A stretch of DNA of 64,000 bases from Clostridium sp. AT4. GTDB taxonomy: Bacteria > Bacillota > Clostridia > Lachnospirales > Lachnospiraceae. Made by a program: the position numbers and the translations under genes. A model generated the notes under the pieces. That model searched no databases. It was not told the DNA's origin and worked only from the letters and a program-made list of their open reading frames with translations. The stretch is taken from assembly GCF_001517625.2 (NCBI RefSeq), contig NZ_LN999828.1:1256303-1320302 (forward strand), read 5' to 3'. Below, piece by piece: positions 9,992 through 30,705 of this stretch (the stretch's first letter is position 1; each line of letters begins with the position of its first letter).

Positions 9992-11611
9992 TTATGCCAG
10001 GAAGTTCTCTGCAATCTTGCGGATTCCTTCCGCATCCTTTGCATACCAGCCTTCAAAATCGAGGCCGCTTTCCTGTACCGCATGGCCTAAGGCCTTTAAA
10101 AATGCCGGAATGTTCTCTTCCAGTATCGCTCCCAGCTCTTCTCCCATCCGTTCTTTTCCCTGGAAGCAGCATCCCTTTACGAAAAGATTAAAAGCAGGTT
10201 TGACTTCTTTATTTACTGATTTTACACCACCTCTGAAGCCGATTACTCCTGTCTGGTGAGTGCCGCAGGAAGATGGACAGCCAGAAATATGGATCTGAGG
10301 CAGGATACCGTCTTCAAAGCCCTCTTCACGCTCCATTTCGATCAGACGGTGAAGCAGAGCCTGGGAATCTCTTACACCCTGCTGGCAGATTGATGCGCCG
10401 ATACATGCTACCGATTCCTCAAAACGGCTGCAGGAGCAGACCGCCTTTTCAGAAGAGGTAACCTCTAACACCTTTTTTACATCCTCTGCCCGGCAGTTGA
10501 TCACATAAAACATTTCTTCCGGAGACAAACGAAGTTCCGCACCAGGAATAGACTCTATCACCTCATAAAGATCTGCAAAAAGAGAAGGCTCCGGGCTTCC
10601 TCCAAGCGGATGGCAGGCTACGCTGTAAAGCCCGTTCTGTTTCTGAGGGATCACCCGCTTTCTCATATAAGGATCTGAAATAGAGGCAAATAAAATCTCC
10701 CTGGAAGTAGCAAAAGCTGTACTCTGATCCTGTACCGTCTCTTCGGATAAGGAAGTCTCTCCCATTTCCAGAGTAAGATCTCCTTCCTCCGCATAAACCT
10801 CGTCCAGCTTCTTTAAAAATGCTTCCTTATACGCCTCAGCACCTCCCAGAGCTTCCTGCATAAAACGGCTTCTGGCTTTGGCCCTGTTTTCATAATTGCC
10901 ATACGCACAGAACAGCTCATGCATGGCTCGGATATAGTAAAGGATCTGATCCGGAGCCACTCCCTCTGCCACCCTTACGCCAAAAGCAGGCTTATTTCCC
11001 AGACCACCTGCGCTGTATACGTCAAAGGTGCCATCCTCTCTGGCCGCAAAGCCAAGATCCCTGTACGTCGCATGCGTGACATTCTTTGGCGTATTAGAAA
11101 ATCCCACCTTCAGCTTTCGGGGCAGTTTTTTCCCCTTGATAAAGCTCATAAGATAATCAGCCGCTTTTAAAGCATAAGGAAGAACGTCAAAATATTCTCC
11201 CTCCTCCACACCGGCCAGAGGAGAAACCATTACATTTCTCGGAAAATCTCCACCACCGCCTCTTGTGACAATCCCGCAGGAAAGGGCTTTTACAGCCAGC
11301 TCACAAACCTGATCCTTTGACAGATCGTGAAGCTGCAGTGTCTGACAGGTTGTTAAATGAACCCGTTTAACCTCATATTCCTTAATACTCTGTACCACAA
11401 AGGCCAGTTTTTCCTTTGTCATCACACCGCCCGGCATACGCAGACGAAGCATGCTGGCCTTTCCGCCCTTTTGAGCATAGCTTCCGAAACCGCCCGAAAT
11501 GCCCTTATAAGTTTTGGCATCCATCTCTCCGCTGTAAAACTGCTCCGTGGCCTGTTCAAACTGTCTGTAGTCCTCTTTCCAGCTCTCCGGCTGAATTGCT
11601 GTCATCTTCAT
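9992..11611 (-). CDS. Siroheme-dependent sulfite/nitrite reductase (ferredoxin type)
   Basis: Six-electron reductase carrying a siroheme coupled to a [4Fe-4S] cluster. It reduces sulfite to sulfide or nitrite to ammonia; the sequence alone does not decide which. The cluster ligands fit the family: Cys403 and Cys409 (CIGASIC) and Cys445 and Cys449 (GCPSSCGTHQ). Two ferrodoxin-like half-domains are repeated, as in NirA/CysI. The start at 11611 has an AGGAAGG site 7 bases upstream but lies 56 bases inside the jetC 3' end. Siroheme synthesis genes lie upstream beyond jetABC, and this enzyme is their likely client. Confidence 0.9.
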   Translation of the reverse strand: MKMTAIQPESWKEDYRQFEQATEQFYSGEMDAKTYKGISGGFGSYAQKGGKASMLRLRMPGGVMTKEKLAFVVQSIKEYEVKRVHLTTCQTLQLHDLSKDQVCELAVKALSCGIVTRGGGGDFPRNVMVSPLAGVEEGEYFDVLPYALKAADYLMSFIKGKKLPRKLKVGFSNTPKNVTHATYRDLGFAAREDGTFDVYSAGGLGNKPAFGVRVAEGVAPDQILYYIRAMHELFCAYGNYENRAKARSRFMQEALGGAEAYKEAFLKKLDEVYAEEGDLTLEMGETSLSEETVQDQSTAFATSREILFASISDPYMRKRVIPQKQNGLYSVACHPLGGSPEPSLFADLYEVIESIPGAELRLSPEEMFYVINCRAEDVKKVLEVTSSEKAVCSCSRFEESVACIGASICQQGVRDSQALLHRLIEMEREEGFEDGILPQIHISGCPSSCGTHQTGVIGFRGGVKSVNKEVKPAFNLFVKGCCFQGKERMGEELGAILEENIPAFLKALGHAVQESGLDFEGWYAKDAEGIRKIAENFLA

Positions 11612-14600
11612 AGATAACCTTCCTTTCCTGTGTAAACTCTTTTAAGCGCCCCCGTTCAAATTCCTGAATGGAAATCGCTTTTTTGTTTGGATTTGCAAAT
11701 ACAAAGGTTCGATCCACATTTTCCAGATAGTTCTGGATCTTATCGTTGGTAGCGCTGATAATCGCCTGGAAGCCCAGTCCCCGGATCAGTTCAATGCAGC
11801 TTGCCACCTTTTCCGCATCCATCTTGGAAAAGGCCTCGTCTAAGATCACCAGGCGGATCGACGGGCTTTTTCGAAGTCCTGCAGGCTGTCCGATATGGTA
11901 AGCCTGTGCAAAGCTTGCAAGAAGCGCTACGTACAGGGGATTTTGCCCCTCTCCGCCGGAATTTTTCCGAAGCATTTTGCTTAAACGGATCTTTATAACC
12001 TCGTCTCCGTTCTGAACCAGCTGCTGCATATCAAAAGAAAGATAGGTCCGGTAATCGGAATATTTTTCCATATTCCGTCTGGCCTCCTCAAGCTGCTCCG
12101 GCGCAGCGTTTTCCGGCGGGATAAAAATGCTGATCAGCTCGTTAATCCTGTCTCCGTAATGATTTTCATGCTCCATGGTAAAAAGGTTCAGCTGATTTTC
12201 AAAGCTGTGATCCAGCCGGGAGGGATCTACCTCTAAAGATTCATCCATAAACATATCATAATACCGTCCGTCTGCTCCCTTAGACCGCGAAATCACAAAC
12301 CTGTATTTATCCTTTCCAAAATCCAGACGGCTGATGATCCGGTTCAGTTCTTCAGTCCGCAGCATGGCCTCCTTAATAGCGCTGCGGATCTTGTACATAA
12401 AATCATCCTTAAAATGCTCCACTGCCGATCGGGCCTGCCTGGCAGCCTGCTCCTTAAACCGTTCCAGATCATCACAGGAAAGGCGGTCAAGAAGACTGTC
12501 ATACGCCTCGTTATCTCTGGCACTTACCGGCACATTGCGGCCCGGATAGCTGCGGATATACTCGGTACGAAGATTCATAAGCGTTTCTCTGGCCTTATTA
12601 CTCTGTTCTGTCAGGATCCTGCATTTATTTTCATAGGTTTCCCGCTCTCTGTCATAGCGTATGGCCTCCCTTTCTGCCAGATAAGCCGAAAGTTCCCTGT
12701 CGTGCTCCGCATTTTCCTCAAGCTGTCCATTCTGGGATGCTGCTGTTTCTTCCAGCTCTGTAATAGAATGGGAAAAACGCTCCAATTCATTTTTGCGGCC
12801 AAGGATCAGCTCCCTCAGGCGGTCCCGTTCCCGTTTCACTCCTTCACACTGCTCAAGAACAGCCGACCGTTCCTCTTCCAGCTGTCCGATATTTTGGGCT
12901 TTCAGCTCCTCTAACCGTCTGGATAACTGCTTCTTTTCGGATTCCTTTTTCTTCCAGGCCTTAATTTCCTCCAGCCACTGCATATATTCCTCTGCTGGCC
13001 CTTTTAACGCCTCAAGCCCTGATATCCGCCTGCAGTCCGCAAGAACCGCTTCCAGGGGCAGTCCGGCTTTTTTAGTCTCCTCCAGTTCTTCCTGAACCAG
13101 CCGGATCCTCTTTCGCAGGCTGTCCTTTCCAATGTACGCCATACGGGTATAATGCTCCGGATTGATATGCTGAAGACGGAGATTATGATATAAAAGGCAT
13201 TCTGGAGTAATACCGATTTTGCAGTCTGAAAGCTCCTCAATGGAGCGGCATTTGATCACTTTTCCAAGCAAAAGCTCCATATATGGAGCAAGAAACGCTT
13301 CTTTAACCCCGATTTCCTCTGCCAGAGAATTTTTAAATACCGCAGCCTGAGAAGAAGCAGCTTTCTCTGTATCGAGAACCGCCACACTGTAATATTTTTT
13401 GGGATCCAGCTCACTGTAAATCTTTAAAGCGGCCCTCGCATACCTGGGGGAAACCACCAGGCTTAATTTGTTGTTTCCCAGATACCCCTCTATGGCATTG
13501 GCCCATTCCGGATGCTTCACTTCCAGAAGGTCAGCCAACACGAATACATCTGCGCTTTTTCCTGTTTCCTCAAACAGGCGCCGTTTTAAATACTCTCTTG
13601 CCTCCTCCAGATATTTCGGATAGGCCTTGCTTCCTGCCTGAAGCTTTTCAAGCTCCTCCTTTAACTGCTTTTCCCTGCGCTTTAGCTCATTGAACCGGGC
13701 AGCCGTTTCCTGGCGGAGTTTTTCTGTATCCGCCTCCATAGAAGCAAGGGATGCCTTTAAGCGGATCATCGTTTCCTTTGAAATGGTGCGCTGTTCAAAC
13801 TCCTCAATATCCCAGAGTGTCTGATTGGAGGTGATATCCTCCTCCTCCCATTTTTTCAGGGAAAGGGTGGTTTTCTGCCAGCGGGCCTCGCTGCGGCTTA
13901 ACTGTTCGCAAAGCTCTCCCAGGGATGAAAGCTGTTCCTTTAACTCCCCGTATCCGGTAGAGGCAATCCGGCGCAGCAGCTCATCGCTCTGGTCTGTAAG
14001 CTCCTTGATCCGGCCTTCGGCACTCTTTAAGGCTTCTGTCTGGCGGTTCAGTTCTTCTTTTCCCAGAGCCGTCCGGTCATTTAAATTCCGGATCCGGGAA
14101 CGGGTATCTAAAAGCTCCAGTTTTTTTACAAACCACTGATACTTGTCCAGCTTATCCTCCAGCATGGTAAAGGTATCAAAGGCTTCACGGATTGCGGTAA
14201 GGCAGCGGATCTCCTGACTGGTATCTTCAATCTTTCTGCGCATCCGTCCGTACTGCATTACGCTTTCCTGCATATCCTCCATATGGATATCCTGCTCCGT
14301 ACAGATATATTCCTTAACGAAGTCCTCCAGCTTGATATTCATCCGAAAGGGGATCGCCCGTTTAAAAAGCAGAGGAAACTTCTCACTGTCAAGTCCTCCC
14401 AGATACGTCTCATACATGATCCGGCGAAACCTCTCATTATGGGAGGTAGAAAAATGCTCTTCCTTTCCATAATGGGTATCCAGCCAGCGTTCCACTTCAC
14501 GGATGGACATGGTACGGGTTTCTGTGCGGTATTCATTTTCCCACAAAGGGCCTTTATGCCAGAAAAAGCGGCGGGATATCTCATTGGATGCCGTTTCTAC

Positions 14601-14987
14601 ATCAAACACAATGCCGATACACTGGTATTCTTCCGTATCGGTGCGTTTTAATTCCAGTACAATAGTAGAACTGAAATTGCGGTTTCTCAAATAGGAAAAT
14701 TCGTTATTGTCCCCTATATTGACCATGCCCCTTAAATATTCAATGAGGCTTCGGTCCGAATCGTCGGCAGCCGCCTTGTTAAAAAAGCCTCTGCCGTCCG
14801 TATTGGCATACAGCACCAGCTGCAGGGCGTCAATTACCGTGGATTTTCCGCTTCCGGAATGACCGGTAAAAAAGTTGATCTCCTCATTTAAGGTAAGCGT
14901 CTTTCTGGAAATGTAATGCCAGTTGTTCAGACAGATCCGCGTAAAGGCCCAGAACGGCCCGACTGCCGGCTTATATTCCGTTGTCAC
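11556..14987 (-). CDS. jetC: SMC-like ATPase JetC/MksB of a Wadjet/Mks-type operon
   Basis: Large SMC-family ATPase (1143 residues). In Wadjet and Mks systems it forms a DNA-loop-extruding motor with a kleisin (JetA) and a kite protein (JetB). The N-terminal Walker A is TGHSGSGKSTVIDALQL (residues 41-57). Long coiled-coil arms follow with a central hinge region. The C-terminal head has the signature NSGGEGQNPLYVALL (near 1010) and Walker B RLVILDEAFSKMD (near 1050). The start preferred is GTG at 14987, preceded by AGGAGGAAGGGG; a TTG at 15014 in the same frame has no site. It overlaps jetB by 17 bases. Its last 18 codons overlap the reductase gene, and no jetD follows. Confidence 0.9.
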   Translation of the reverse strand: MTTEYKPAVGPFWAFTRICLNNWHYISRKTLTLNEEINFFTGHSGSGKSTVIDALQLVLYANTDGRGFFNKAAADDSDRSLIEYLRGMVNIGDNNEFSYLRNRNFSSTIVLELKRTDTEEYQCIGIVFDVETASNEISRRFFWHKGPLWENEYRTETRTMSIREVERWLDTHYGKEEHFSTSHNERFRRIMYETYLGGLDSEKFPLLFKRAIPFRMNIKLEDFVKEYICTEQDIHMEDMQESVMQYGRMRRKIEDTSQEIRCLTAIREAFDTFTMLEDKLDKYQWFVKKLELLDTRSRIRNLNDRTALGKEELNRQTEALKSAEGRIKELTDQSDELLRRIASTGYGELKEQLSSLGELCEQLSRSEARWQKTTLSLKKWEEEDITSNQTLWDIEEFEQRTISKETMIRLKASLASMEADTEKLRQETAARFNELKRREKQLKEELEKLQAGSKAYPKYLEEAREYLKRRLFEETGKSADVFVLADLLEVKHPEWANAIEGYLGNNKLSLVVSPRYARAALKIYSELDPKKYYSVAVLDTEKAASSQAAVFKNSLAEEIGVKEAFLAPYMELLLGKVIKCRSIEELSDCKIGITPECLLYHNLRLQHINPEHYTRMAYIGKDSLRKRIRLVQEELEETKKAGLPLEAVLADCRRISGLEALKGPAEEYMQWLEEIKAWKKKESEKKQLSRRLEELKAQNIGQLEEERSAVLEQCEGVKRERDRLRELILGRKNELERFSHSITELEETAASQNGQLEENAEHDRELSAYLAEREAIRYDRERETYENKCRILTEQSNKARETLMNLRTEYIRSYPGRNVPVSARDNEAYDSLLDRLSCDDLERFKEQAARQARSAVEHFKDDFMYKIRSAIKEAMLRTEELNRIISRLDFGKDKYRFVISRSKGADGRYYDMFMDESLEVDPSRLDHSFENQLNLFTMEHENHYGDRINELISIFIPPENAAPEQLEEARRNMEKYSDYRTYLSFDMQQLVQNGDEVIKIRLSKMLRKNSGGEGQNPLYVALLASFAQAYHIGQPAGLRKSPSIRLVILDEAFSKMDAEKVASCIELIRGLGFQAIISATNDKIQNYLENVDRTFVFANPNKKAISIQEFERGRLKEFTQERKVIYEDDSNSAGELERGLQTV

Positions 14988-15618
14988 TTTCCCCTTCCTC
15001 CTCTCCTTCTTCAAAATCAGCTAAAAGCTCTCTCACATCATCCCCCAAAAGCACTACATTGATGCTGGGATAGATGATAAACGGGCTTTCATAAGACAGC
15101 TCATCCAAAAGATCCAGAGGCTCGATCAGCTGATATTTTTTCAGCAGCGTAACCGTGCGCCGGATCTCGCTGGGAGAAGGCTGGCGTTTAAAAAGCCGGT
15201 AATTCCCCAGTTTTTCATGGACCGCTCCCAGCGTAGTATATACGTTCACGCTGGCAGATACATTTTCCATCTGTTCATCATAGATCAGTTTGAGAATAAG
15301 AAGATAAAGGGTTGCCAGTCTAGGAAGCTTTTCACCCACCAGATCTTCTCCCTGGATATAGATCATCCCCATATGGCTGTTTTCCAAAACCTCAATGCCG
15401 GCGACGGCAAAATACCGGCGGATAAATTCCAGGTGGAGACTGCAGCTGCGATACTCCTTTGTATACTGGAACCGGCCTGTTTTCTTATCATACTTGCGCT
15501 CCAGCAGAAACGTCTGGCGAAGCAGAAGGCGGATCAGATCCGTGATCTCCTGTTTCGTCTGGCCCATCTGTTCGTCATAGTAGGGAATCCCTGCTTCTGT
15601 CTTTATAATTTCCGTCAC
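14971..15618 (-). CDS. jetB: JetB/MksE-type kite protein (DUF4194)
   Basis: Winged-helix kite subunit (215 residues) expected to bind the kleisin and DNA in the JetABC condensin-like complex. The core around IRRYFAVAGIEVLENSHMGM and RLATLYLLILKLIYDEQM matches DUF4194. The C-terminal winged helix includes RRTVTLLKKYQLIEPLD, and the tail is very acidic (EEGEEEGES). Its ATG overlaps the jetA stop codon by four bases (ATGA), so translation is coupled. jetC begins inside its 3' end. It is identified mainly by this order plus the family core. Confidence 0.87.
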   Translation of the reverse strand: MTEIIKTEAGIPYYDEQMGQTKQEITDLIRLLLRQTFLLERKYDKKTGRFQYTKEYRSCSLHLEFIRRYFAVAGIEVLENSHMGMIYIQGEDLVGEKLPRLATLYLLILKLIYDEQMENVSASVNVYTTLGAVHEKLGNYRLFKRQPSPSEIRRTVTLLKKYQLIEPLDLLDELSYESPFIIYPSINVVLLGDDVRELLADFEEGEEEGESDNGI

Positions 15619-16964
15619 GTTCTGGTCCTCCTTACAAATACAAAACCCGGATAGGTGTAAGGCCCCTTCATTACAGGCGCCGGATCCTCCGTCTCTGCCG
15701 TATAGGTACTTTTTCTCCGGATGGATTCATCATATGCAAGGATCAGCTTTTCAAAATCCCCGTCATTTTCCACCGTATCCTCCGTTACCTCCATCCGGCC
15801 GTCCTTCATCCGGCTGGTGATAAATTCCTCAATCTCTCTGTGGCTGTAGCGGTTCTTTACCCTGTTAATGTTAAGGATCTCCTCTGCCGAAAGCTCCGGC
15901 ATTTCTTCCTCATCCTTTAGCTGCTCCGTAAAAGATGCCCTGGTATGCCTGCGCCTGTAAAGAGAAGCCTCCGAAACCACATTGGGCTGGGACAGGTTCA
16001 TACGTTCCCCAATGGCCTTTAGCTCATCCTCTGTTCCTCCTGTTTTGGAAAGATGGTTTAACAGCTGGATCACCAGCCCCTTCATATCATCCTCCTGGTT
16101 TAAAAGATAGCCCATACGCGTCACAGTCGCCTTAACATACCGGGAATGTTCTTTGTCCATATTGGATATCCTGTGTTCAATATCGTCAAAGCCCTTCTCC
16201 AGCTGATCCAGCTTTTCAAGGATCTCACCCGTCCCCTCTCTGCCGGAAAGACGGGTAAGCCAGGGAATATCCTCCCGCATGGAAGCAATCCAGCTTTTAA
16301 TATCCGTTTTATAAAGATAAAAATTATCGCTGGTCTTTAAAATGTGGTATTTTTTATTTACCACCTCTTCCACATACCCCTCCAGATGATCCTTTAAAAG
16401 AGAACCGTAATCCCTCTGCTCCAAAAGCTTTCCGAAAAACTTATCCATGTTGTGAAGCATATCCTGAAGGGACTTATTCAGTTTTTTCGTATTTACAAGA
16501 GCCGTATCCAGAAGGCTGATGCCGGATCTGGGGTCATGTTTTAATGAAAAAAGGATGGCATAGATATTCTGGATATAGATCTGAGCTTCATCCTCCTGCT
16601 CATTACAAAGCCTGGAAAAGCTTTCTATAAAAACAGCCGCATAATCCGGGATGATAATATTGACAGTCATGGTTGCATAGTCATCCACTTTTCTGAGCCA
16701 TCCGGTCTTTAAAAGCCAGTTTAAAACCCGGGTGGCCGGAGGCTCAAACTGATCCTCTTCTTCCTCTAATTCATCCTGCCAGATCACACAGCGTTTTTCT
16801 GCAAAATATTCACTTAAAAGCTGAATACACATTTCCCTGCTTAAAAAATAATTGCTGTATTCGTATTCCTCGCTGATTTTTAACAGCGCTTCAATGTAAG
16901 CAGACCGGTTCACCGAGCGGAAAAGGCTCCAGAACCGGTCCGGTATCTCCTGTATCAGTTTCAT
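15615..16964 (-). CDS. jetA: JetA/MksF-type kleisin subunit (Wadjet JetA family)
   Basis: Kleisin-like subunit (449 residues) of the Wadjet/Mks complex, resembling the JetA family annotated as DUF5716. The N-terminal region FWSLFRSVNRSAYIEALL, with further winged-helix segments (VLNWLLKTGWLRK), would bind the SMC neck. A long helical middle (residues 160-300) follows. The C-terminal segment from about 380 contains EEILNINRVKNRYSHREIEEF. The start at 16964 has AGGAGG 6 bases upstream. It is the first gene of jetABC and has its own promoter in the end of the preceding cobA-hemD gene. Confidence 0.87.
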   Translation of the reverse strand: MKLIQEIPDRFWSLFRSVNRSAYIEALLKISEEYEYSNYFLSREMCIQLLSEYFAEKRCVIWQDELEEEEDQFEPPATRVLNWLLKTGWLRKVDDYATMTVNIIIPDYAAVFIESFSRLCNEQEDEAQIYIQNIYAILFSLKHDPRSGISLLDTALVNTKKLNKSLQDMLHNMDKFFGKLLEQRDYGSLLKDHLEGYVEEVVNKKYHILKTSDNFYLYKTDIKSWIASMREDIPWLTRLSGREGTGEILEKLDQLEKGFDDIEHRISNMDKEHSRYVKATVTRMGYLLNQEDDMKGLVIQLLNHLSKTGGTEDELKAIGERMNLSQPNVVSEASLYRRRHTRASFTEQLKDEEEMPELSAEEILNINRVKNRYSHREIEEFITSRMKDGRMEVTEDTVENDGDFEKLILAYDESIRRKSTYTAETEDPAPVMKGPYTYPGFVFVRRTRT

Positions 16965-16991: not shown

Positions 16992-17020
16992 ATTATATCA
17001 GGAAAAACGCCTTATGGCAA
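16992..17020 (-). promoter_or_regulatory. Promoter of jetABC
   Basis: On the minus strand, TTGCCA (17015-17020) and TATAAT (16992-16997) are separated by exactly 17 bases, and jetA starts 28 bases after the -10. The -35 lies within the last codons of cobA-hemD, so the jet operon can be expressed independently of siroheme synthesis. Confidence 0.75.
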
Positions 17021-18562
17021 TGGAGCAGTCCCATCAATTACCGCTTTCACAAGTCCCGGAATATGATAAGACTCAGCAATGATATCCGCTGTTTTTCCGA
17101 TCTCCTCTTTCATCGCCTCTGCAGTAACCGGGCCGATGGCCGCATACAAGGGTCTTTCTGAATCCTCCGGCCTGCAAAATCCTCCGGCCTGTTTAAATGC
17201 ACGGACGCCGGAAGGGCTTGCAAATATCAGCACACGGCATAACGACAGCTGCTCTTCCATTCGTTTCGAGGGAACGCCCTTTACCGCATAAAGAGGAATA
17301 TCATCAAAAGGGATCCCTGCCTTTATAAGCATCTGAGCCAGTTTCACAGAGGCTCCCTCCGCTCTTGCCATAAGAACGCGGTCCTTTGAATGAAGCACTT
17401 TAAAAAGCGCCTGAGCCAGGCTGGCAGAGCAGTATTCCTCCGGCACAAGATCCGGCCGGATCCCCCGTTCCAAAAGCGCCCTGCAGGTTGCAGCCCCGAT
17501 CGCAGCCACCTTCATATGCCCTAAAGCCCGGATATCCAGGCCGGATTCAAAAAGCCCTTTAAAAAACAGCCGGACACCGTTTACACTGGTAAGAACCAGC
17601 CAGGTATATGTTCCTAGTCTGGGATATACGGAAGCCATGGCATTTTTCCCTTTTTCTTCCAGGCATTCCATCCGAAGGAGCGTTTCTGTTTTTGCCCCCT
17701 CTTTTCGCAGTGCGATTTCCATCTGATCTGTAAAATGCTCCGTTCCGATCAATCCGACGGTCATTCCATCAAGAGGCCCTCTGGGATTTACCGTTTCCGG
17801 CTGCAGGTTAAAGGCAGCCGCCTCCCCCACTACGATAATGGCAGGCGTGTGAAAGCCCTGCTCCTTCGCTTTTGCGGCAAGCGTCTCTAGATCAGCCCGC
17901 AAAACCCTCTGGTTTAAAAGAGAACCGTTCTCGATCAGGGCAGCCGGTGTCTGTGGAGACTTTCCTCCCCGGATCAGGCCCTCTGTAATAGACGACAGGC
18001 TGTGAAAGCCCATGAGAAAAACAAGGGTTCCCTCCATTGCAGCATATGCTTTCAGCTCGTTCTGCTCACAGCCGCCCGCCAAGGTATGACCGGTAATCAC
18101 ATGAAAGCTGCGGCTTATGCCCCGATGGGTGACGGGAATCCCCGCAAGCTCCGGTACGGCTACCGCAGAGGTGATCCCAGGAACGGTTTCCCATGAAATC
18201 CCGGCCTCTTTTAATGCCAGGATCTCCTCCGATCCCCTGCCGAACACAAAAGGATCGCCGCCCTTTAAGCGGACTACATTTAACCCCTCTTTTGCCAGCC
18301 CGATCAAAAGATGGTTGATCTCCTCCTGAGGCATGGAGTGGCTCCCTGCTTCCTTTCCGGCATAAATGATCCTGCAGTCCTTTCGGACAAACCCTAAAAG
18401 CTCCTGGGAAGCCAGATGGTCATAGACCACGGCATCACAGGCCTTTAACCGCTCCATCCCCCGGATGGTCAAAAGTTCTCCCGCTCCCGGTCCGGCTCCT
18501 ACCAGACACACGGTACCCCATTTTTTTTCATTCCTTGATACAGGTGTAATGGTATATTTCAT
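17012..18562 (-). CDS. cobA: Fused uroporphyrinogen-III methyltransferase and uroporphyrinogen-III synthase
   Basis: Bifunctional CobA-HemD protein (516 residues) of siroheme synthesis. The N-terminal half (residues 15-255) is the SAM-dependent uroporphyrinogen-III C-methyltransferase: VCLVGAGPGAGELLTIRG, LKGGDPFVFGRGSEE, VPGITSAVAVPELAGIPVTHR. The C-terminal half from about 268 is the HemD fold that cyclises hydroxymethylbilane, with VLTSVNGVRLFF and VLIFASPSGVRAF. The start used is the ATG at 18562, which overlaps the hemC stop (ATGA). The upstream extension to 18631 lies within hemC and is not family-like. Together with HemC and the dehydrogenase it converts porphobilinogen to sirohydrochlorin. 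Confidence 0.95.
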   Translation of the reverse strand: MKYTITPVSRNEKKWGTVCLVGAGPGAGELLTIRGMERLKACDAVVYDHLASQELLGFVRKDCRIIYAGKEAGSHSMPQEEINHLLIGLAKEGLNVVRLKGGDPFVFGRGSEEILALKEAGISWETVPGITSAVAVPELAGIPVTHRGISRSFHVITGHTLAGGCEQNELKAYAAMEGTLVFLMGFHSLSSITEGLIRGGKSPQTPAALIENGSLLNQRVLRADLETLAAKAKEQGFHTPAIIVVGEAAAFNLQPETVNPRGPLDGMTVGLIGTEHFTDQMEIALRKEGAKTETLLRMECLEEKGKNAMASVYPRLGTYTWLVLTSVNGVRLFFKGLFESGLDIRALGHMKVAAIGAATCRALLERGIRPDLVPEEYCSASLAQALFKVLHSKDRVLMARAEGASVKLAQMLIKAGIPFDDIPLYAVKGVPSKRMEEQLSLCRVLIFASPSGVRAFKQAGGFCRPEDSERPLYAAIGPVTAEAMKEEIGKTADIIAESYHIPGLVKAVIDGTAPLP

Positions 18563-19536
18563 GGCCAAAGTAATCCTTTCCCCGCTTGATCTGCTAGTGT
18601 TGTCACTGATATTTCTGAAAGTGTTCCGCACAGGTCAACCCGGCGTATCTTATTTTTAAGCTCCGCGTCCGTAAGCTGTGAAGCATGTTCCGGTCCATTG
18701 ATCCCGCGAAGGCGCAGTTTCGTTTTTCCATCTTCTTCAAAGAGGTTCGCATATACGGCCACCGGCGCATGACAGCCTGCCTGAAGCGTTTCAAGCACTG
18801 ACCTTTCTGCTGTAAGGCACAGACGGGATGATCTGCAGTCGATCTGGCTGCAGAGCCTGTGAGCCTCTGTATCCGCTTTCGTCTCCACTGCAAGGATTCC
18901 CTGTCCCCCGGCAGGCAGAAACTGTTCCGGGCTCAGGCGGATGAAGCGCCATTCTTCCCCCTCTTCAATTCCCAGACGTTTTAACCCTGCTGCTGCTAAA
19001 AGGATCCCGTCACAGGCGCCTTCTTTCAGTTTTTTTAATCGGGTCTGGACATTTCCCCGAAGCGTCCTGCACACAGGCCGGCTTTCCTTATCCAGCCATT
19101 TTGTACTGCCGCAGATACTCTGCCACTGCTCCCGGATCTGCAGCTGGCGTCTGGGACTGGAGGTTCCGATGACAAGTTCCTTTTTGTCTGTCTTTAAGGC
19201 AGTCTTTGGCAGTATCAGTACATCCCCCGGATCTTCGCGCTCAGACAGCGCTGAAATCACCAGCCCCTCTGGAAGAGAAACCGGCATATCCTTGGCACTA
19301 TGGACTGCAAGGTCAATGGAGCCTTCTAAAAGAGCCTGTTCAAATTCGGAAACAAATGCTCCCTTCCCCCCAAATGCCTGGAGAGGAGAATGAAGGAGCT
19401 GGTCTCCTAGCGTATCCCTTGTAAGAATCTCTGTCTGAAGACCCGGAAACTTATTTTTCAGCTGTTCAGCGATCATTTCTGCCTGGCGCAGAGCCAGAAC
19501 ACTTTTCCGGCTTCCGATACGAAGTATATGGTTCAT
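18559..19536 (-). CDS. hemC: Hydroxymethylbilane synthase (porphobilinogen deaminase)
   Basis: Polymerises four porphobilinogen molecules into hydroxymethylbilane. The dipyrromethane cofactor would attach at Cys255 (LQAGCHAPVA). Other family motifs are RIGSRKSVLALRQAE, the catalytic-aspartate segment SIDLAVHSAKDMP (residues 73-85), IGTSSPRRQ and RTLRGNVQTRL. The start used is the ATG at 19536, which overlaps the upstream stop codon as ATGA and has AGAGGAAG 8 bases before it. hemA, hemL and hemB, which supply the substrate, are not in the window. Confidence 0.96.
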   Translation of the reverse strand: MNHILRIGSRKSVLALRQAEMIAEQLKNKFPGLQTEILTRDTLGDQLLHSPLQAFGGKGAFVSEFEQALLEGSIDLAVHSAKDMPVSLPEGLVISALSEREDPGDVLILPKTALKTDKKELVIGTSSPRRQLQIREQWQSICGSTKWLDKESRPVCRTLRGNVQTRLKKLKEGACDGILLAAAGLKRLGIEEGEEWRFIRLSPEQFLPAGGQGILAVETKADTEAHRLCSQIDCRSSRLCLTAERSVLETLQAGCHAPVAVYANLFEEDGKTKLRLRGINGPEHASQLTDAELKNKIRRVDLCGTLSEISVTTLADQAGKGLLWP

Positions 19537-27144: not shown

Positions 27145-30100
27145 CTACTCTGTCAGACTGTCCTCAATCAAATTTACACTCACCAGGGCTGATACGCCCT
27201 TTTCCTGCATGGTAATGCCGTAAAGGCGGTCGGCAGACATCATGGTACCCCTTCGGTGGGTAATGACAATAAACTGTGTATTTTCTGTAAGCTTATGGAG
27301 ATACCCGGCAAACCGGTCCACATTGGAATCATCCAGAGCCGCCTCGATCTCATCTAACAGGCAGAAGGGGGACGGCTTTAAATTCTGGATGGCAAACAGC
27401 AGGGAAATGGCAGTCAGCGCTTTTTCCCCTCCGGAAAGCTGCATCATATTCTGCAGCTTTTTGCCCGGCGGCTGGGCGATAATCTGAATACCTGCCTCTA
27501 AAATATCCTCATCCTCCAAAAGCTCCAGAGTCCCCCGTCCTCCGCCGAAGAGTTCCTTAAACACCCGGTCAAACTCAGAGCGGATCTCTGAAAATTTTTC
27601 CTTAAACTGGCGGCGCATTCCCGTATCCAGCTCCAGGATGATCTTTTCTAACTCCGCCTGGGCAGCGGTCAGATCCTCATGCTGGGTTTTCATAAAGAGG
27701 AAACGCTCGGATACCTCCCTGTAATCCTCAATGGCATTGACATTGATCGGGCCAAGTGCCTTGATCCGGGTTTTTAATCCGCCTATGATCCGGCTTACTT
27801 CTTCCAGAGAAGGAAAATCCTCCTTTTTCATCGCCTCTGCCTGAACAGCCGTCATCTCATATTCCGACCACAGATATGCGGCCCCTGATTCCAGCTTTTC
27901 CTGCAGCTTCTCCTCCTGGGACTGAATGCGGAACATATCCTTATCCAGTTCCGAAGCGCGGGATGAAATTTCTTCCCGGACTGTAAAAAGCTTCTTTTGC
28001 TGTGCGAGAAACGCTTCCTTCTGCTCTGCTTTTTTTGCGATCAACGCTTCGCTGTCTGCCGTCTGAAGCAGAGAATCCTCAATCTCTCTGCGGATTTTTA
28101 AAATCTCCTCCTGCTTTTTTGCAATGGCTTCTCCTGATTCTGTGCTTCCTTTAGAGAGCTGGGACAGTTCCTTTTTAAGCAGCTCCCCTTCTCCCCAAAG
28201 ACGTTTTTCATTCTCACGGATAAAATCCAGCCTCTGGGCCAGTCCTGCCTGCTTAATGCTTAACTGCGCCAGCTGCTCGCTGTCTGCCTCTTTTTCCTTC
28301 TTTGCCTGTTCCAAAAGAAGGCTGTGTGCATTTACAGTCTCAGCAGCAGCCTCACTCTCGCTGTCCAGAGCCTCTTTCTGTGTTTGCAGACTTCTGCGGC
28401 TTTCGCTGATCTCCTTTGCCTGAGTCTCCAGCTGATGATGCTCCCTTACCAGATCAGAGGAAGAATCGGCAATCTCTCCCTTTTTCTCCTCCAGTCTGGA
28501 AATAGTAACCCGAAGCGTATTCTCTTCCAGCGCCAGCTTTTGTCCGGCTCTTTTTAAGACAGCCGCCTCATCCTTTTTTTCCTGAACAATTGCCTCTTTC
28601 AGACTTAACTCTGTCTGAATGGTCTCCGCCTGCTTCAAATAACGTTCGCAGGTCTGTTCCAGCTCCTCGATCTCCCTGCGGCGCCCTAAAAGATTACTGC
28701 TGTTTTTAAACGCGCCTCCCGTCATGGAACCGCCTGGGCTTAAAAGCTCACCCTCCAAAGTGACAATTCTCAGGCTGTAGCGGTATTTTTTAGCCAGGGC
28801 AATGGCCGCATCAATCGTATCAGCCACTACCACCCGGCCCAAAAGATACCGTACCAGTCCCCGGTAACATTCTTCTGTTTCTACCAGTTCGCTTGCAAGG
28901 CCGATCACGCCTGCTTCCTTTAACGCCTCAGGCCTTGAAAAGGACGGTCCGCTTCCCATACTGGTAAGAGGCAGAAAGGTAGCCCGGCCATATTTATTTT
29001 TCTTTAAATATTCGATCAGCTGCTTGGCCATAATCTCTGAGTCTGTGACAATGTTCTGGATACTGCCCCCAAGGGCTGTTTCTATGGCTGTTTCGTACCT
29101 TTTGCCAGTAGTGATCAAATCTGCCACCACGCCGTGGATCCCATGGATCCGGTCCCGGACCTCCATCACCCGGCGGATGCTGTTTCCGTAGCCGTCATAG
29201 CGCTCCGCCAGATTCTGCAGCGATTCCAGCCTGGTATGGGCCATGTGGTATTCCTGCTGGGTATCATTTAACCGTCGGTTTAACCGGCGGACCTCGCCGT
29301 CTGCCTGCTCCATACCATCCTCGGCTTCCTGGGCTGCAACCTGCTTTTCCACCAGCTCCGCCTGCACCTGTGCAAGATGCTCCTTTTCCTCTGCGATCCT
29401 CTCCTCCTGAAGAGATTCGTCACTTTTAAACCGGAGAAGCTTCTGGGAAACCTCGCTGCGGCGCAGATTTACCTGCTCCGACATAGCCTCATAGCGCTGC
29501 TGTCTGGCCGTCAGCTCGGCCTTTTCATTCAGGAAGCGGAGCATCTGAGCGTTTGCCTCCTCGATCACCGCTTCCAGATGGCTGATATGACTTTCTTTTT
29601 CAGAAATCTCCTGTCTGGCACGGTTCAGCCGGTTTAATTCCTCTGTATTCTGCTCCCCAATTCGGTTTTGTTCCGCTTCAAAGTCCGCAAGCTGTTCCTC
29701 TTTTCCCTTCAGTTCCTCAGTGATGGCTTCCTTTCGGTTTTTAATATGCTCCTCATTCCGCTCTTCTGCGTGGATCTGTTCTCTTAAAACATTGATCCGG
29801 CCTTCCAGCGTGTTTTTTTCCATGGACGCCTCATTGAAACGGCTCCGTTCTTTTAAAACAGCTTCCTCCAGACTGCGGATTTCTGCTTCCAGGCGGTCAT
29901 ATTCCTTTCGGATGTCCTCACCTTTTTTTCTAGTCTCCTCCAGATCTCCTTCCAAAACCTGCTTTTTCCTGGAAATTTCGTTTAACTGGCTCTGGATGTG
30001 CTCTGCTTCCAACAGAAACTGGTTGGCATCACAGACCTTCAGCTCTTCCTTTAACTGCAGATACTCCCTGGCTGCCTTTGACTGACGCTCTAAGGGTTCC

Positions 30101-30705
30101 ACCTGCTTTTCCAGCTCATTTAAAATATCCGATACACGTACCAGACTGGCCTGTTCGTCCTCCAGCTTTTTCTGTGCAATGGCCTTGCGCCGTTTGTATT
30201 TCACAATACCTGCAGCTTCGTCAAAAAGCTCCCGCCGTTCCTCCGGCTTTCCGCTTAAGATCTTATCGATCTGTCCCTGTCCGATAATGGAATAGCCCTC
30301 TTTTCCGATTCCCGTATCATAAAAGAGTTCATTGATATCCTTCAGACGGCAGGCGCTCCCATTTATCATATATTCACTTTCACCGGAGCGGTAAAGGCGT
30401 CTGGATACCGTCACCTGCTCATAATCGATGGACAGCTGGTGATCGCTGTTATCCAGGGTAATTGCTACGTAGGCAAAGCCCTGGGGCTTTCTCAGTTCTG
30501 TGCCGGAAAAGATCACATCCTGCATACTTGCCCCGCGCAGCTGGCGGATTCTCTGTTCACCTAAAACCCAGCGCACCGCATCTGCCACATTGCTTTTTCC
30601 GCTTCCGTTTGGCCCTACAATGCCTGTAATTCCATTATGAAATTCAAAGACCAGCTTATTGGCAAAGGATTTAAAGCCCTGGATCTCGATACTTTTCAGA
30701 TACAT
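27145..30705 (-). CDS. smc: Chromosome segregation protein SMC
   Basis: Condensin ATPase that organises and segregates the chromosome with ScpA and ScpB. At 1186 residues it has standard length. Walker [17 protein letters not shown] lies at residues 31-46. Two long coiled coils flank a hinge near residues 510-680 containing the [12 protein letters not shown] and GGSMTGGAF segments. The C-terminal head has [17 protein letters not shown] and Walker [14 protein letters not shown]. Its start overlaps the rnc stop region by ten bases, giving the conserved rnc-smc-ftsY order. Confidence 0.98.

Follow-up and report, generated by a model that had tools for sequence, protein, structure and literature searches.

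An intact Wadjet type I core without jetD in Clostridium sp. AT4: apparent repeated loss of the nuclease gene and retained selection on jetABC in Lachnospiraceae

What might a Wadjet type I complex do in a cell when the nuclease required for its defence function is missing? The question is raised by jetABC, a three-gene cluster in a 64,000-nucleotide stretch of the genome of Clostridium sp. AT4, a member of the Lachnospiraceae (contig NZ_LN999828.1, positions 1,256,303 to 1,320,302; this whole stretch is hereafter the window). In other Wadjets, JetABC senses the shape and size of DNA, probably by loop extrusion, and JetD does the cutting, according to a review that also proposes that MksBEF, and perhaps MukBEF, derived from a Wadjet defence system after JetD was lost (PMC10586767). 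Since jetD is missing from the window locus, plasmid cleavage cannot be assumed there. Our analysis points to a Wadjet type I core that probably descended from JetABCD by loss of jetD, was kept under selection, and now most likely acts as an MksBEF-like auxiliary condensin.

JetABC forms an intact core of Wadjet type I, and the following features were located at the locus (JetC is a structural maintenance of chromosomes, or SMC, ATPase; ORF, open reading frame; aa, amino acids):

15615..16964, reverse strand: jetA (kleisin; MksF-like), 449 aa; PADLOC JetA1 model PDLC00451, 762.9 bits over 1-447; Pfam PF18982, 461.4 bits
14971..15618, reverse strand: jetB (KITE; MksE-like), 215 aa, GTG start, 4-nucleotide overlap with jetA; PADLOC JetB1, 342.2 bits; Pfam PF13835, 60 bits
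11556..15014, reverse strand: jetC (SMC ATPase; MksB-like), longest ORF 1152 aa, overlapping jetB; PADLOC JetC1, 1623 bits; Pfam PF13558, 77.8 bits, and PF13555, 53 bits
14838..14864, reverse strand: JetC Walker A, GHSGSGKST, residues 51-59, from the sequence
11943..11963, reverse strand: JetC ABC signature, NSGGEGQ, residues 1018-1024, from the sequence
11817..11852, reverse strand: JetC Walker B, LVILDEAFSKMD, residues 1055-1066, from the sequence
16992..17020, reverse strand: promoter-like site, TTGCCA-17-TATAAT with TG preceding the -10, immediately upstream of the jetA start; 11/12 positions match
9992..11611, reverse strand: nitrite/sulphite (siroheme) reductase, NIR_SIR; Pfam PF01077/PF03460, 104.7 bits; occupies the slot held by jetD in jetD-bearing relatives

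All three genes score best against the PADLOC models for Wadjet type I and form an overlapping, operon-like cluster, which, together with the complete SMC ATPase motifs of JetC, is what defines a Wadjet type I core. Run against the PDB, a profile built from 16 JetC sequences (11 from clade W, defined below and including the window, and 5 others) recovered the solved JetC chains 8as8 (3.5e-37) and 8dk2 (4.2e-30). Single-sequence PDB searches with the window JetC and JetA matched no Wadjet chain, nor did a JetB profile, and the IFDR motif described for another JetB (PMC10586767) was therefore not placed in JetB. An initial annotation, made from the letters and their ORFs, had described the overlapping JetA-JetB-JetC set with complete Walker A, signature and Walker B motifs, the siroheme reductase after jetC and the lack of jetD; coordinates, PADLOC, Pfam and motifs bear out the first of these statements, the NIR_SIR match the second, and the profile searches of the genome reported next the third.

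A Wadjet type I defence system also requires a linked JetD Toprim nuclease, and none is present at the locus, nor was an intact JetD found in the genome. DUF3322 (PF11795) has zero matches across the window genome, JetD_C (PF09983) a single sub-cut-off match of 20.8 bits, and PDLC00524, the JetD1 model nearest clade W, one match of 23.9 bits at the same place. Both matches fall on a 226-aa ORF that matches a type II JetD over its C-terminal region (JetD2; PDLC00556, profile positions 234-421 of 430), with a DUF2399 match and without the N-terminal half. A JetD encoded elsewhere in the genome was thus looked for and only this JetD2 fragment was found, in searches that did not extend to a genome-wide survey of non-JetD nucleases. 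The fragment, seemingly a broken second Wadjet nuclease, is located at L097:9233-9913 (G000:C7, about 336.2-336.9 kb); an ORF resembling an IS66 transposase immediately precedes it, and ORFs of resolvase-like and relaxase-like appearance lie further upstream (names taken from reading the ORFs, with no database search).

The absence of jetD is not peculiar to the window genome, and it is much commoner among the nearest homologues than in other JetA clades. When the window JetA was searched against 397 Lachnospiraceae genomes, 80 matched, and a clear gap separates 38 of these, with a best stretch of at least 324 bits and 44-100% identity, from the other 42, with at most 126 bits; the 38 constitute what we call clade W (our own name). 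The 80 JetA-positive genomes were searched with PDLC00524, a match being counted by hand as linked when it was on the same contig and within 12 kb of jetA, and a check with 22 verified JetD query sequences left the jetD states behind these counts as they were (G labels denote genomes, and L labels loci or tree rows). JetD is linked in 11/38 clade W genomes vs 33/42 with other JetA clades (Fisher p 1.3e-5), and any JetD is present in 17/38 vs 37/42 (p 4.1e-5), the genomes in both comparisons not being phylogenetically independent. The remaining 27 clade W genomes comprise one (G065) with JetD beside a clade JetC piece on another contig, one (G163) with an unlinked JetD, four (G046, G250, G352, G284) with JetD beside a different JetC, and 21 without JetD by PDLC00524, the window genome with its weak fragment match counted among them. 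No JetD of the clade was thus found in 25/38 genomes, in 21 of which the sequence runs on unbroken for 1.1 kb or more beyond jetC; homologues of the three-gene set therefore usually lack jetD, an outcome that the initial annotation had listed as one that would refute it. Among the 42 non-clade genomes, JetD is linked in 33, unlinked in 4, and absent or weakly matched in 5. Genus g321 adds three genomes (G591, G652, G707) that carry a JetA of clade W and have no JetD match. An order-level search at E 1e-60 matched 9/392 genomes, all of the same family; 363 are not listed, so the share of other families in the sample cannot be stated. Counting JetABC matches as plasmid defence would overestimate defence in Lachnospiraceae.

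The individual genomes also gave some observations of their own. In G284, G352, G250 and G046, a second, divergent JetC with adjacent JetD (L117, L119, L120, L121) accompanies a clade W JetABC without jetD. In G026 (L113:3239-11557), one of the 11 genomes counted as linked, about 7 kb of other genes stand between jetC and jetD, with an apparent run of short repeats directly after jetC. G683 carries a strong JetD on a different contig from its JetA.

Orthologous sites show how this state may have arisen. In the genus of the window, 15/17 genomes have a JetA match, 13 of them belonging to clade W by reading of the matches, and the comparison of orthologous Lachnospiraceae loci that the initial annotation had suggested finds jetD intact, reduced to a fragment, or gone at the same sites. 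G400 carries jetABCD, and G401 has a linked JetD as well. In G399 (L132:11483-11824), jetC is followed by a 113-aa C-terminal fragment of JetD, and the JetABC proteins are 99-100% identical to those of G400; judged by these sequences, the loss of jetD in G399 relative to G400 is very recent. G406, G403 and G398 have no jetD, and the gene that comes after jetD in G400 directly follows jetC in them. A second group gives the same picture, with jetD in G033 and none in G132, G046, G361 and G321, all with the same 941-962-aa gene downstream.

On a JetABC tree of 65 rows (17 with jetD, 33 without, 15 outgroup or unknown), the jetD state needs at least 14 changes, of which starred branches force 12, or 23 losses if only loss is allowed; the state is no more clustered than shuffled labels (238/500 equally low). 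An earlier tree of 57 rows needed 14 changes with the outgroup and 13 without. Both were quick IQ-TREE runs (LG+G4, branch support by the SH-like approximate likelihood-ratio test only) with program warnings of long outgroup branches meeting and rows of odd composition. Rows excluded were L006, L007 and L009 (contig ends), L002 and L005 (contigs of L098 and L104), L126 (as L091), L137, L139, L140 and L141 and, from the 65-row tree, also L084 (jetA only); the jetD state was left as unknown for L010, L015, L083, L091, L111, L135 and L138. The outgroup row L127 was labelled jetD-bearing though the JetD match of its genome lies far off, the outgroup being uncounted in the 65-row tree and counted in the group table of the 57-row tree. 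Across 16 rows, distances among JetC proteins are correlated with those among JetD proteins (Mantel r 0.74, p 0.0001), which makes losses from an ancestral jetABCD the simpler reading; the correlation is looser than that of JetC with JetA (0.97), so some exchange of jetD may have taken place. Repeated gain of jetD was considered in place of loss and set aside, the fragment and deletion states at orthologous sites favouring loss. From these sequence comparisons, jetD seems to have been lost repeatedly in clade W with the rest of the system kept, and such repeated loss with JetABC retained suggests that the machine is useful in its own right. As a side observation, the divergence of JetD outpaces that of JetC (identity to the nearest row mostly 0.41-0.57 vs 0.48-0.76), and JetD distances fit those of JetC worse than do those of JetA.

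A replacement effector in the jetD slot was also sought among 60 loci by clustering the ORFs that come first after jetC; 8 loci had no such ORF. Apart from JetD, the recurrent neighbours are all specific to a lineage, namely a 452-494-aa gene in genus g1 and the 941-962-aa gene of the G033 group, and the candidate was rejected.

Low ratios of nonsynonymous to synonymous divergence (dN/dS), intact motifs and a conserved promoter indicate that jetABC has remained under purifying selection after jetD was lost. Ratios were computed by the Nei-Gojobori method (NG86) and are approximate, dS above about 1 being saturated. Between the window and its congener G119, the nearest row in the tree, dN/dS is 0.083 for jetA, 0.074 for jetB and 0.061 for jetC, at dS 1.1-2.0, and all three frames are intact. 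These values lie below those of the siroheme-synthesis neighbours in the same pair (CobA-HemD 0.180, HemC 0.147, CysG-N 0.183); the reductase gives 0.092 and SseB 0.078. The two loci have the same jetD-less gene order, with a 56-nucleotide overlap of jetC and the reductase in the window and a short gap in G119. Other jetD-less pairs, including the fragment-bearing G399, range from 0.025 to 0.106 wherever saturation did not prevent the calculation, as it did for L013-L014 and L014-L090; this is close to the 0.041-0.117 of jetD-bearing pairs (six computable values). Mixed pairs range from 0.036 to 0.132 where computable, G399-G400 excepted. Among 33 jetD-less rows, Walker A and the signature are present in 33/33 and Walker B in 32/33; the one row without it is truncated where its contig ends. 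A TTG(C/T)CA-17-TATAAT pattern with TG before the -10 stands ahead of jetA in 7/7 loci compared within the genus, with or without jetD (G399 and G400 being nearly identical), and a looser pattern in 2/7 loci compared outside it; the promoter scan as a whole gave 17 sites vs 14.4 in shuffles, so the weight of the promoter rests on its conservation. By these sequence measures the window core is not visibly decaying. A three-subunit, MukBEF-like complex that is without MksG/JetD and is maintained under selection in that state shares these two features with an MksBEF-type system.

How, then, might the complex work without its nuclease? We propose that the present JetABC descends, through loss of jetD, from a full JetABCD whose place in the chromosome was inherited, as the orthologous sites suggest, and that the three genes would since have stayed intact, promoter-equipped and under purifying selection, as judged from dN/dS, motifs and the conserved promoter. 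Because JetABC is the loop-extruding, shape-sensing part and JetD the cutter in the published Wadjets, a JetD-less complex would be likely to extrude without cutting; most likely, it still loads on DNA and extrudes loops, and would be unable to cut. The window encodes a canonical SMC protein as well:

27145..30705, reverse strand: canonical chromosomal Smc; TIGR02168, 1084.6 bits, above cut-off

ScpA is also present in the genome (142.7 bits), and JetC is therefore a second SMC there. Beside Smc and ScpA, JetABC would act as an MksBEF-like auxiliary condensin that folds chromosomal, perhaps also plasmid, DNA. By analogy with the described complexes, its cellular function is most likely that of a loop-extruding SMC complex. 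Among the three readings that the initial annotation had offered, the Mks-like condensin is the best supported; a JetD encoded elsewhere, for which only the JetD2 fragment was found, and decay of this locus, which sits poorly with low dN/dS, intact motifs and kept promoter, are not supported.

Several observations weigh against a core maintained for such a role. In the closest pair, G399-G400, dN/dS reaches 0.35 for jetA and 0.18 for jetC, from 7 and 5 changes, and the saturation of dS above about 1 bears on the estimates as a whole. A comparison of 17 jetD-bearing with 33 jetD-less rows yields few separating columns, of untested significance, and no mark of specialisation, and the N-terminal motif of JetB is kept with and without jetD, so that no clear loss of an interface with JetD is seen. 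Literature searches on clade W yielded no data on expression, Hi-C or plasmids. Finally, G262 (L084:7151-8509) has a full-length clade JetA alone, with jetB and jetC gone and a different gene directly after it, and L010, G407 and G405 each have a jetC broken in two, with the neighbour genes broken too in G405. These eroded loci are what would be expected if plasmid defence became inactive upon loss of jetD and jetABC were a remnant on its way out. That jetD loss is frequent, and in G399 very recent, fits such a decay, as does the judgement of a Stenotrophomonas maltophilia study, in the part devoted to its Wadjet I without jetD, that the system is 'probably inactive' (PMC11680222). Yet jetD-less pairs are about as constrained as jetD-bearing ones, promoter and ATPase motifs are retained, and the window and G119 have diverged to dS 1.1-2.0 in the same jetD-less order with all three frames intact; we consider decay unlikely.

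Two further explanations keep the complex in plasmid restriction, and we regard each as improbable. JetABC could restrict plasmids through JetD or another nuclease encoded elsewhere, as might be read from G163, where a clade JetD is on another contig, from G026, where it is 7 kb from jetC, and from the DUF2399-bearing JetD2 fragment of the window genome; but the JetD1 model is blank, or has only the window genome's weak match, in 21/38 clade genomes, the unlinked JetDs of G046, G250, G352 and G284 adjoin another JetC, the window fragment is of another Wadjet type and without its N-terminal half, and no gene consistently replaces jetD downstream of jetC. JetABC might instead compact or silence small circular DNA on its own, as proposed for Smc5/6 and viral circles. 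Selection on the core without JetD would be consistent with this, but no direct evidence speaks for it; the rolling-circle Rep families PF01446 and PF01719 were matched in 0/48 genomes with and without jetD, in a search whose controls were positive in only 0/14 and 1/14. That jetD is present and merely missing from the assembly would be conceivable for a draft of 7 contigs that is 97.2% complete, but 11.5 kb of continuous sequence extends beyond jetC in the window and the congener G119 has the same gene order, which makes an artefact very improbable.

The auxiliary-condensin reading can be set beside known systems. The order jetA-jetB-jetC, the subunit families and the ATPase motifs align the locus with Wadjet type I (JetABCD / MksBEFG / EptABCD), and relatives carry jetD at orthologous sites, whereas the window locus is without it. 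Like the MksBEF condensin of Pseudomonas aeruginosa, described as a three-subunit MukBEF-like SMC without a nuclease beside the canonical SMC (PMC7485682), JetABC would work alongside Smc; in Lachnospiraceae, however, a single family shows repeated loss, in one case very recent, Wadjet type I models still recognise the proteins, and the chromosomal role is inferred. The S. maltophilia system likewise conserves jetABC without jetD, but it is called probably inactive in the passage cited above, whereas the estimates made here indicate strong selection on jetABC. MukBEF and other nuclease-less members of the Wadjet group also do without MksG/JetD (PMC7617805), with the difference that the window genome additionally has canonical Smc and ScpA; MukBEF folds the chromosome of Escherichia coli, and cells deficient in it die when growth is fast, according to the same source (PMC7617805). 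JetD-less Wadjet/Mks complexes are thus already known, P. aeruginosa MksBEF (PMC10586767) and 'several other Wadjet group members' (PMC7617805) having been mentioned in print, and the interest of the present case is the recurrent loss with selection retained. Among open-licence papers, none was found that describes jetD being lost repeatedly in Lachnospiraceae.

For clade W at large, it is tempting to speculate, though only tentatively, that selection maintains JetABC for a function that does not involve cutting, be it chromosome folding or nuclease-free plasmid silencing, and that JetD, costly and dispensable, was lost a dozen or more times. If true, the clade would offer numerous natural repeats of the transition, proposed for MksBEF and MukBEF, from defence against plasmids to a housekeeping SMC. 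The apparent step from Wadjet to MksBEF is visible many times and even among very close relatives, where one and the same site can have jetD whole, as a fragment or not at all, and the role of a looping machine without its cutter becomes testable through such loci.

Siroheme-synthesis genes neighbour the window locus, one of them located upstream of jetA:

17012..18631, reverse strand: CobA-HemD fusion, upstream of jetA; Pfam

HemC and a CysG-N-like gene lie further upstream, beyond CobA-HemD (Pfam). On the other side, the reductase ORF that shares 56 nucleotides with the end of jetC is followed by an SseB-domain gene and then by an ffh-like ORF, the latter named from reading the sequence. The siroheme reductase stands after jetC in the window and G119, and a different gene occupies this place in the other loci of the genus with a readable flank.

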